Source: Burkholderiales bacterium PBB1 (lineage in GTDB: Bacteria; Pseudomonadota; Gammaproteobacteria; Burkholderiales; Burkholderiaceae_C). From it: a DNA stretch of 64,000 bases. Both the position numbers and the translations under genes were made by a program. Shown here one piece after another: positions 4,884-17,873 of the stretch; the first letter of the stretch is position 1; every line of letters begins with the position of its first letter. The notes under the pieces were generated by a model, which saw only the letters and a program-made list of their open reading frames with translations, was not told the origin of the DNA and searched no databases. The stretch spans positions 285,925-349,924 of the forward strand of contig NKIN01000003.1 of NCBI GenBank assembly GCA_002255905.1. Reading direction: 5' to 3'.

Positions 4884-6236
4884 TCAGCGTTGCTTGCGAT
4901 CGCTCATCCACCCTTCGAGGTAGTGGATGTTGGTGCCGCCCTCGATGAACTTCGCGTCGGCCATCAGCTCCCGGTGCAGAGGGATGTTGGTCGAGATGCC
5001 TTCGATCACCGTTTCCGACAGCGCGATGCGCATGCGCGCCAGCGCCTGCTCGCGGGTGTCCCCGTGCACGATGATCTTGCCGATCATCGAGTCGTAGTTT
5101 GGTGGCACGTAGTAGTTGGTGTACGCATGCGAATCGACCCGCACGCCGGGGCCGCCGGGCGGGTGCCAGGTGGTGATGCGGCCAGGTGATGGCGTGAACT
5201 TGTACGGGTCTTCGGCGTTGATGCGGCATTCGATCGAATGGCCGCGGCACTCGATCTGCCGTTGTGTGAAGGGCAGCTTCTCCATCGCCGCGACCTTGAT
5301 CTGCATCTGCACGATGTCGATGCCCGTCACCAGTTCAGTCACCGGGTGCTCGACCTGCACGCGGGTGTTCATCTCGATGAAGTAGAACTCGCCGTTCTCG
5401 TAGAGGAACTCGAAGGTGCCGGCGCCGCGGTAGCCGATCTTCTTGCAGGCTGCGGCGCAGCGCTCGCCGATGCGCTCGATGATCCGGCGCGGGACGCCCG
5501 GTGCAGGCGCCTCCTCAATGATCTTCTGGTGCCGGCGTTGCATTGAGCAGTCACGATCGCCCAGCCACACCGCATTGCGGTGCTGGTCGGCCAGCACCTG
5601 GATCTCGATGTGGCGCGGGTTCTCCAGGAACTTCTCCATGTACACCGCCGGGTTGCCGAAAGCAGCGCCGGCTTCGGAGCGCGTGGTCTGTACCGCGTGG
5701 ATCAGCGCCGCTTCGGTGTGCACCACCCGCATGCCGCGTCCACCGCCACCGCCGGCGGCCTTGATGATCACCGGGTAGCCGATCGAGCGCGCGGCCTTGA
5801 CGATCTCGCGCGGGTCATCGCTCAGCGCGCCTTCGCTGCCAGGCACGCAAGGCACGCCCGACTTGATCATCGCCTGCTTGGCCGACACCTTGTCACCCAT
5901 CATGCGGATGCATTCCGGGGTCGGGCCGATGAAGGTGAAGCCGCTGCGCTCGACACGCTCGGCGAAGTCGGCGTTTTCGGACAGGAAGCCGTAGCCGGGG
6001 TGGATCGCCTCGGCGTCGGTGACTTCTGCCGTCGAGATGATCGCCGGCATGTTCAGGTAGCTCTGGCTCGAAGCTGCCGGGCCGATGCACACCGCTTCGT
6101 CGGCGAGCTTCACGTACTTCGCGTCGCGGTCGGCCTCGGAGTAGACGACGACCGACTGGATGCCCAGTTCACGGCAGGCGCGCTGGATACGCAGGGCGAT
6201 TTCGCCTCGATTGGCAATGAGTATTTTTTTGAACAT
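4884..6236 (-). CDS. accC: Acetyl-CoA carboxylase, biotin carboxylase subunit
   Basis: This 450-residue ATP-grasp enzyme carboxylates the biotin on AccB, the first half-reaction of acetyl-CoA carboxylase in fatty-acid synthesis. The N-terminus [20 protein letters not shown] is the classical biotin-carboxylase start. The glycine-rich ATP loop GGGGRGMR, the EAPAPG segment and the active-site region [16 protein letters not shown] are intact. I chose the ATG at 6236, just ahead of FKKIL and preceded by GAGG; an in-frame start 15 bp upstream would add five non-conserved residues. A short reading frame repeating its first codons lies immediately upstream. Confidence 0.97.
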
Positions 6237-6247
6237 GGTGCCTCGGC

Positions 6248-6346
6248 TCAATCGCCCTGACGGGCTGCGCCCGCCGTGCCATTTGGCTGCGCCGCCACGC
6301 CTGTGGCGTGGTCACCCCGGTTGGCCATCAGAATTTTTTTAAACAT
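6248..6346 (-). CDS. 32-codon leader frame duplicating the accC start
   Basis: Between accB (stop at 6360) and accC (start at 6236) a minus-strand frame begins [12 protein letters not shown] and runs 32 codons to a TGA at 6248, eleven bases before the accC ATG. Its first 12 codons match the first 12 codons of accC, with differences only at third codon positions (8 of them). Only two change the residue: I to M at codon 7 and E to D at codon 12. After that it diverges completely. The accC ribosome site lies just after its stop, so translational coupling is possible. It has no strong ribosome site of its own. It could be a leader peptide or the relic of a second biotin-carboxylase gene. Confidence 0.5.
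6295..6311 (-). other. Hairpin inside the accC leader frame
   Basis: A perfect 7-bp stem CCACGCC / GGCGTGG with a 3-base loop lies within the short leader frame ahead of accC. No T-run follows, so it is not a standard terminator. It could affect leader translation or RNA stability. Confidence 0.4.
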
Positions 6347-6359
6347 CAAACGGCCCGCA

Positions 6360-6812
6360 TCACTCGACGATGAACAGCGGTTGACCGTATTCGACCGCCT
6401 GACCGTTCTCGCACAGGATGCGGGTGATTCGCCCGGAGTGGTCGGCCTCGATCTCGTTCATGATCTTCATTGCCTCGATGATGCAGACCGCATCGCCTTC
6501 CTTGACCTCGGAGCCGATGTCGACCAGCGGCTTGCCACCAGGGCTGGACGAGCGGTAGAAGGTGCCAACCATCGGTGACTTGACGGTGTGGCCTGTCGCA
6601 ACCACCTCGGCAGCGACCGGGGCAGGCGTTGGCGCCTGATCAGCGGTTACCGGGCGTGCGGGCGTCGGCGGTGCAATCACATAGCTGGGCGCAACGGCCT
6701 GCGGATCGGCCTTGACGATGCGAACCTTGCCGTCGGCTTCCGTGATTTCGAGTTCGGAGATGTTCGATTCGGAGACCAGATCGATCAGCGTCTTCAGTTT
6801 GCGTAGGTCCAT
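6360..6812 (-). CDS. accB: Acetyl-CoA carboxylase, biotin carboxyl carrier protein
   Basis: A 150-residue BCCP. The N-terminal part ([20 protein letters not shown]) is followed by an Ala/Pro-rich flexible linker (about 40-75) and a C-terminal biotinyl domain. Biotin is attached to the Lys of [12 protein letters not shown] (K116); the usual proteobacterial motif is AMKMMN, so the residue after Lys is Ile here. I chose the ATG at 6812, which starts at the conserved MDLRKLK; an ATG 15 bp upstream is in frame but not conserved. The order aroQ-accB-accC-prmA on the minus strand suggests a single operon. Confidence 0.96.
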
Positions 6813-6885
6813 GGGGAGGGGCTCCAACGGGTGTAGGGGGTGCCTGGGTCAGCAGTGAGATGAAGGCGAAGGGGGCGTGGGGATG

Positions 6886-17615: not shown

Positions 17616-17656
17616 TAACCCAAAAGAGGCCCTCAACACCAGCCATTTGAGTGGCT

Positions 17657-17829
17657 CGCTTCGGCCAAAGGCGAACGGCAAAGGCTCTGGCACGAGAACA
17701 TGAACCGGACTACTTCAGTGGTGACCTCGCTCAGGTTCAAACATGCGGTCTCGCTGCGCCTTGACCCTGTCGGGTACTCGGTTTGGGTTCTCGTGCCAGA
17801 GCCTTTGCCGTTCGCCTTTGGCCGAAGCG
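17657..17829. repeat. 43-bp perfect inverted repeat, centre of a longer imperfect palindrome
   Basis: The 471-bp gap between purH and ruvC holds two arms that are exact reverse complements for 43 bp (17657-17699 and 17787-17829), separated by 87 bp. Outside them the arms remain alignable with a few mismatches for roughly another 25-30 bp each side (to about 17630 and 17857). Small hairpins flank the whole. No coding frame in the gap looks real. This resembles dispersed intergenic palindromic repeats of Burkholderiales rather than an IS element: there is no transposase and no target duplication visible. Confidence 0.85.
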
Positions 17830-17873
17830 TGACAGCCAAATGGGCTGGTGTTCAGGCCCTTTGCTTTGGTGAC

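Follow-up and report, generated by a model that had tools for sequence, protein, structure and literature searches.

A leader frame that copies the start of accC lies in a conserved hairpin cassette at biotin-carboxylase genes and may be coupled to carboxylase translation

Introduction

Fatty-acid synthesis has acetyl-CoA carboxylase at its committed step, and how bacteria control this enzyme is still a matter of debate (PMC11602165). The same source describes two proposals for Escherichia coli, namely that AccB autoregulates transcription of accBC and that the carboxyltransferase represses translation of accA and accD, the latter of which has been challenged (PMC11602165).

The junction of accB and accC in Burkholderiales bacterium PBB1 holds a short reading frame that opens with a near-copy of the first codons of accC, which raises the question of why a gene should be preceded by its own beginning. 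An earlier note on this DNA offered two answers: a conserved leader peptide coupled to accC, or an accC-like paralogue truncated by recombination. From the comparisons below, we consider it moderately likely that this reading frame serves as the leader ORF in a conserved cassette that acts in cis at biotin-carboxylase genes, and that it is translated and is coupled to, perhaps gating, translation of the carboxylase.

Organization of the accB–accC junction

The DNA analysed, referred to here as the window, is a stretch of 64,000 nt (GCA_002255905.1, contig NKIN01000003.1, positions 285,925–349,924 of the forward strand). On its minus strand, accB is followed by a gap of 123 nt and then by accC. 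The features of the junction, in window positions, are as follows.

6363–6812, minus strand: accB (biotin carboxyl carrier protein), the upstream gene, with its stop codon extending to 6360; the open reading frame at 6360–6827 has a longer TTG start.
6312–6346, minus strand: T1, the copy of the accC start (codons 1–12 minus one base), which opens the leader frame; from sequence comparison.
6248–6346, minus strand: leader ORF (uORF) of 32 codons plus TGA; from the list of open reading frames, with the T1 frame open in 68 of 68 copies.
6295–6311, minus strand: hairpin 1, CCACGCC-ACA-GGCGTGG, with a covarying stem; from a covariance model and the fold of the window.
6285–6293, minus strand: mini hairpin GGC-GCA-GCC, invariant in the accC-type set and covarying in the pccA-type set.
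6250–6283, minus strand: hairpin 2, whose 3' side overlaps the tail; from the accC-type and pccA-type core models.
6242–6259, minus strand: tail, complementary to about codons 12–16 of accC (arms 6192–6206 and 6245–6259, 87%).
6241–6244, minus strand: GAGG, the presumed accC ribosome site, part of the cassette; from the sequence.
4887–6236, minus strand: accC (biotin carboxylase), the downstream gene; from the list of open reading frames and AccC protein matches.

The first 12 codons of the leader (ATG TTT AAA AAA ATT CTG ATG GCC AAC CGG GGT GAC) and of accC (ATG TTC AAA AAA ATA CTC ATT GCC AAT CGA GGC GAA) differ at eight bases, every one of them at a third codon position, just as the earlier note had described for this 32-codon frame; two of the eight alter the residue (I7M and E12D). 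The third base of codon 12 is part of the inserted core, and the true copied block therefore comprises about 35 nt with seven differences (28 of 35 positions equal). The note was also right that the frame stops 11 nt before the ATG of accC with a ribosome site in between, as GAGG lies there and is the likely ribosome site of accC. The whole cassette measures 110 nt and is arranged in the order T1 (about 35 nt), hairpin 1, mini hairpin, hairpin 2, tail, ribosome site and gene. The hairpins, the gene-pairing tail and the occurrence at other biotin-carboxylase genes described below are additions to what the note contained.

Within the genome of PBB1, three matches to the AccC protein were found at E values up to 1e-10, and a model of the core produced its sole strong match at accC, the next having an E value of 0.85. 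By eye, codons 12–15 of the gene look similar to the 5' side of hairpin 2 (AAATTGCC).

T1 stands where accC starts in relatives

accB was matched in 39 of 40 genomes searched. The genus sample consisted of 15 genomes, in 14 of which the accB–accC junction was obtained, the remaining one (G007) being without an accB match. In 12 of the 14 junctions, accC directly follows accB with a gap of 13 nt, whereas the other two, those of the window (G000) and of G010, have a gap of 123 nt with a matching insertion of 110 nt. T1 begins 13 nt after accB, at the same distance as the accC start in the 12 cassette-less junctions, and because this distance is the same in both arrangements T1 occupies the native position of accC.

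This arrangement speaks against a paralogue truncated by recombination, the second answer of the earlier note: T1 sits at the start place that accC itself has in relatives, and codon 12 is followed by a conserved hairpin core instead of further paralogue homology and a decaying frame. The note had added that loss of the frame in relatives would mark it as a relic, and on this point the genus is mixed, since 12 of the 14 junctions lack the cassette while G010 keeps both the frame and its stop. T1 of G010 reads MFKKTLITHQGD, with four T1 residues changed, or five including codon 12. The cassette-less junctions look clean, which is compatible with loss as well as with gain.

We also compared the 131-nt region with its own genome and the genus. 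Beyond the copy in G010 and the starts of genes, only short GC-rich matches were found among the matches listed, and a dispersed repeat was rejected on these grounds.

The cassette recurs before biotin-carboxylase genes

A DNA search with the 131-nt region against 399 genomes of the family revealed this layout not only upstream of accC but also upstream of other biotin-carboxylase genes, which we label pccA or mccA from their N-terminal sequence. The repeated start is not a chance resemblance, since dozens of further genomes share the arrangement. A covariance model (R1), built from 11 accC-type cores with the start copy excluded, contains 24 pairs with 90.5% of cells paired, far above slid controls, and eight pairs changed on both sides compared with 4.2 in shuffles (1 of 500 as high). 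Likewise, a second model (R2) from 11 pccA-type cores showed 95.9% pairing and seven pairs changed on both sides compared with 2.9 in shuffles; its further pair types were not above shuffles (401 of 500 as high). Comparison thus shows covarying hairpins in both types of core.

At E values up to 0.001, R1 matched at least 57 of the 399 family genomes, in at least 38 of 141 genera, and had no match in 342. R2 matched 27 of 399 genomes of the order, from which two (L213 and L214) were removed as false, leaving at least 25 including PBB1 and spanning ten family codes. These genome counts are lower bounds because filtering was stricter in the large scans and either model was made from a single type. 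A scan of 274 genomes of the class returned only PBB1 and one other place (L218), which does not adjoin a biotin-carboxylase gene. Judged by their downstream sequence, the R2 matches L213, L214 and L218 and the R1 match L169 are false. The distribution is patchy, with 12 of 14 genus junctions lacking the cassette and 342 of 399 family genomes lacking an R1 match, and the cassette is therefore dispensable.

R1 listed 80 places in the 399 family genomes. A biotin-carboxylase start lies within 90 nt downstream in 67 of these, while nine precede a further unit, one (L147) precedes a unit missed by the pattern, two are at contig ends and one (L169) lies elsewhere, so that 77 of 78 evaluable matches stand before biotin-carboxylase genes or a further unit. 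A T1-like peptide is present upstream in 74 of the 80; the six places without one are single units of L129, L122 and L180, together with L148 (which contains N), L168 and L169. All places listed by R1 are included in the 80, and 21 other rows are repeats, copies from the DNA search and weaker units (including L176:1074, inside a gene, and L138:2976). Tandem arrays of two to five cassette units occur, and some genomes carry copies at two carboxylase genes. In L147 (G128:C12:836537-837196), five closely alike tandem units of about 139 nt each precede one carboxylase gene. In seven copies (L082, L089, L105, L139, L171, L173 and L182), found before accC and other carboxylase genes, hairpin 1 is replaced by a longer insert resembling GCTCGCGCG...GGGGGAACGCTCA....

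A search of named genomes with a strict pattern returned two Burkholderiales MAG contigs, whose cassettes group with that of the window on the core tree. In a plasmid collection, the cassettes of the window and of L097 had no match, and that of L164 had partial matches only, which from their listing are taken as the starts of carboxylase genes.

The copied start is constrained as protein

Near-identical copies were removed before counting, reducing the two copy sets from 72 to 68 and from 95 to 87, and L029 was left out because its resemblance to T1 was judged fortuitous. The T1 frame is open in all 68 copies, compared with 16 and 53 of 68 for the other two frames. Comparison likewise shows that the position of the stop is kept: among 87 non-redundant copies, all but one have the stop of the T1 frame at −22 to +19 nt relative to the gene start, most commonly overlapping it (+8 in 43 copies and +4 in 6). 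The coupled leader put forward in the earlier note gains support from this placement and from the protein-level constraint on T1 described next. The one exception, L102, is an in-frame fusion. In L102/L129 (G301), several tandem units are present and no stop separates the leader frame from the carboxylase gene, so that the predicted protein would be extended and would carry its N terminus twice. The start codon of T1 is ATG in 81 of the 87 copies, GTG in three and TTG in one, and no in-frame start was found in two. On average, T1 is preceded by a weak ribosome site (−5.15), between the values of genes (−6.51) and of a random control (−4.28).

Differences between T1 and its own gene numbered 27, 14 and 156 at codon positions 1, 2 and 3 (68 copies, one with N skipped). 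Among 39 disjoint pairs, the corresponding counts were 31, 11 and 140 for T1 against T1 and 14, 0 and 122 for gene against gene. In a set of 27 pairs, from which pairs of unequal length or less than 70% alike had been dropped, T1 showed 21, 11 and 98 differences, whereas the rest of the frame, the hairpin part, showed 89, 74 and 72. Because differences are skewed to the third position only in T1, the codon counts indicate that the copied start is kept at the protein level and the hairpin part is not. Moreover, the third bases of T1 agree with those of its own gene at a rate of 0.668, compared with 0.486 for other genes. Since T1 is closer to its own gene than to others, sequence exchange between T1 and the gene probably adds to its conservation, although exchange alone should not favor third positions so strongly. 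Ribosomal bypassing from T1 into the gene is not favored, as the third bases of codons 10–11 agree at only 55 of 86 class C sites.

The tail matches the gene that follows it

The pccA-type tail is the reverse complement of codons 10–15 of the downstream gene, perfectly so (18 of 18) in L141, L152 and L161, and matches at a mean of 15.6 of 18 positions in 35 class C copies. The accC-type tail is complementary to about codons 12–16, with a mean of 12.4 of 18 in 27 class L copies. The tail doubles as the 3' side of hairpin 2, and its pairing with the gene and the pairing of hairpin 2 therefore compete.

We then compared the tail with the third bases of the gene, leaving out copies with a tail match below 12 of 18 (3 of 46 in class C and 8 of 35 in class L, so that 43 and 27 were used). 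As the tail was placed by best match, placement favors agreement, and the permutations ignore relatedness except in the T1 control; with these properties, class C agreed at 40, 37, 37 and 43 of 43 copies for R10, G11, E12 and I13, compared with 24.8, 15.6, 23.1 and 37.3 in shuffles, and showed no excess at A14 (38 and 38.1) or residue 15 (26 and 25.5). Class L agreed at I13 in 24 of 27 copies and at A14 in 22, compared with 16.3 and 14.9 in shuffles, with no clear excess at R10 (11 and 11.0), G11 (27 and 27.0), E12 (23 and 21.4) or residue 15 (15 and 12.9). T1 provides a control of equal relatedness at those sites of codons 10–11 where it differs from the gene. There, the tail agrees with the gene at 32 sites, with T1 at 2 and with neither at 3 in class C; the corresponding counts are 6, 1 and 0 in class R, and 12, 2 and 9 in class L. 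Across 1152 tail–gene positions of copies that passed the limit of 12 of 18, 991 form Watson–Crick pairs, and GU pairs (38) outnumber A·C mismatches (10). Complementarity matched to the following gene is thus apparent from comparison.

In the window, the minimum-energy fold includes the stem between the tail and accC (z = −3.14), and codons 10–15 are predicted to pair with the last part of the leader at a mean probability of 0.69. Shuffling the tail left the predicted openness of the gene start almost as it was (intact and shuffled, 0.467 and 0.470 for class C, 0.487 and 0.501 for class L, and 0.511 and 0.507 for class R); only blocking the tail, as a ribosome would, raised it, to 0.61, 0.651 and 0.63, respectively. 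Masking of the gene start by the tail on its own is not apparent from these folds.

Discussion

In the mechanism that we propose for the cassette, ribosomes leaving accB would initiate at T1, the position of the accC start in relatives, pass through the hairpins as they translate the leader, and terminate at the start of accC. The tail at the end of the leader would pair with about codons 12–16 of accC and enclose the ribosome site and ATG of accC in a loop, and the ribosome completing the leader would break this stem and either hand over to the accC start or free it. The tail–gene stem may act as a gate or as an aid to re-initiation. We infer translation of T1, repression by the tail stem, its relief by leader translation and a response to some signal from the conserved layout.

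Several known systems resemble parts of this layout. In the RNA-unfolding model of translational coupling, which passages of PMC12548453 review together with coupling by scanning, the upstream frame ends at the downstream start, as in the cassette, and the upstream ribosome opens structure over that start, for which the predicted tail–gene stem is a candidate here. The cassette differs in that its upstream frame is a short leader combining hairpins with the beginning of the gene itself, and in that this leader recurs in front of numerous genes of a single enzyme family. Leader peptides, motifs of uORFs (candidates are given in PMC11109978) and attenuators similarly have a short conserved leader frame and alternative RNA stems upstream of a metabolic gene, but the conserved part of the cassette copies the N terminus of the target protein, and, unlike in attenuators, neither a run of a single codon nor a terminator T-run was seen in the window copy.

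A known RNA family was rejected: Rfam returned only a tRNA at gathering score across the whole window, with no match for the cassette at threshold, and nothing near threshold at the loci of 16 relatives. The weak matches were to RF04311 dauA (18.9 bits, window cassette) and RF02917 Burkholderiales-2 (25 bits, L093), both far short of the respective gathering scores of 45 and 67.9; dauA is known from Streptomyces, before a gene for a STAS protein. A literature search, whose coverage left most subscription papers outside, found no paper on such a cassette. Because it recurs in scattered members of the order, nearly always before biotin-carboxylase genes, the cassette is probably an undescribed kind of translation control. 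If this holds, a leader family that re-uses the start of its target, with a tail covarying with target codons, would add a new layout to those known for translation control and would provide a natural setting for telling RNA unfolding from re-initiation.

The strongest competing explanation, which we regard as unlikely but serious, is that the cassette is a DNA-level element. It would spread among biotin-carboxylase starts by recombination at the start copies of about 35 nt, template switching at highly stable DNA hairpins with GNA loops would preserve the match between its inverted repeats, and the leader frame and tail pairing would be by-products, tolerated because the cassette rebuilds a ribosome site and start. 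C(GNA)G loops account for 111 of 199 four-pair triloop hairpins counted, an abundance that fits a DNA-level history, and GNA loops are reported in passages of PMC4686876 to form exceptionally stable DNA mini-hairpins. The tandem arrays, the patchy distribution, the tracking of the own gene by T1 and the clean-looking cassette-less junctions are also in keeping with such an element, although these junctions fit loss equally. On the core tree, which is weakly resolved (80 columns, 87 rows), the gene class changes 12 times, where the least possible is three, and two starred branches hold core subtypes common to accC and other genes. Some copies thus seem to have moved between biotin-carboxylase genes, but class labels are still strongly clustered, as shuffling gives 33.4 changes. 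A recombinant 5' end of accC was set aside, as identities in its first 60 nt were suggestive but not clear. Against by-products, it counts that T1 is under a coding constraint unlike that of the hairpin part, that the frame and its stop position are kept, that GU pairs exceed A·C mismatches and that the tail follows the gene, not T1.

REP- and MITE-like palindromic repeats are short, hairpin-rich, GC-rich and sometimes tandem. The cassette shares these features but differs in that nearly all of its places stand before biotin-carboxylase starts, with one strong match in its own genome. Several dispersed copies per genome at unrelated sites, as for a mobile repeat, were not found, and only 1 of 80 family places is clearly off a biotin-carboxylase start.

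A bolder extension, which we hold as doubtful, is that the cassette is specific to a gene family and tailors itself: it would settle only at biotin-carboxylase starts, carry a start copy for its own leader and an anti-start tail matched to the host gene, and as one RNA/DNA module control different carboxylases across the order. Here, the 11-residue peptide of T1 might have a role of its own, such as mimicking the first strand of the enzyme in nascent or free form.

It is improbable that the leader frame has no regulatory role and only keeps ribosomes on the spacer, so preventing polarity between accB and accC through Rho or RNase. As this would have it, the hairpin part has kept an open frame but not its peptide. 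Such a role, however, would call for neither the start copy nor a tail matched to the gene, nor for cassettes at other biotin-carboxylase genes, and the spacer is 13 nt long in 12 of 14 genus junctions. That T1 is an old accC start, left and now neutral after a recombining fragment brought a second one, draws on its native position and spacer and on the altered T1 residues of G010 but is likewise improbable given the same cassette with open frames in many genera and ten family codes of the order and the coding constraint on T1.

Two further features of the window lie away from the junction. On the plus strand, a frame at 1275–1763 encodes 162 residues of AAPAKKAPAKK repeats with a 33-base period and looks histone H1-like by eye. 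At 17643–17843, a long imperfect inverted repeat has arms of 65 nt that are 89% complementary and spaced by 71 nt.
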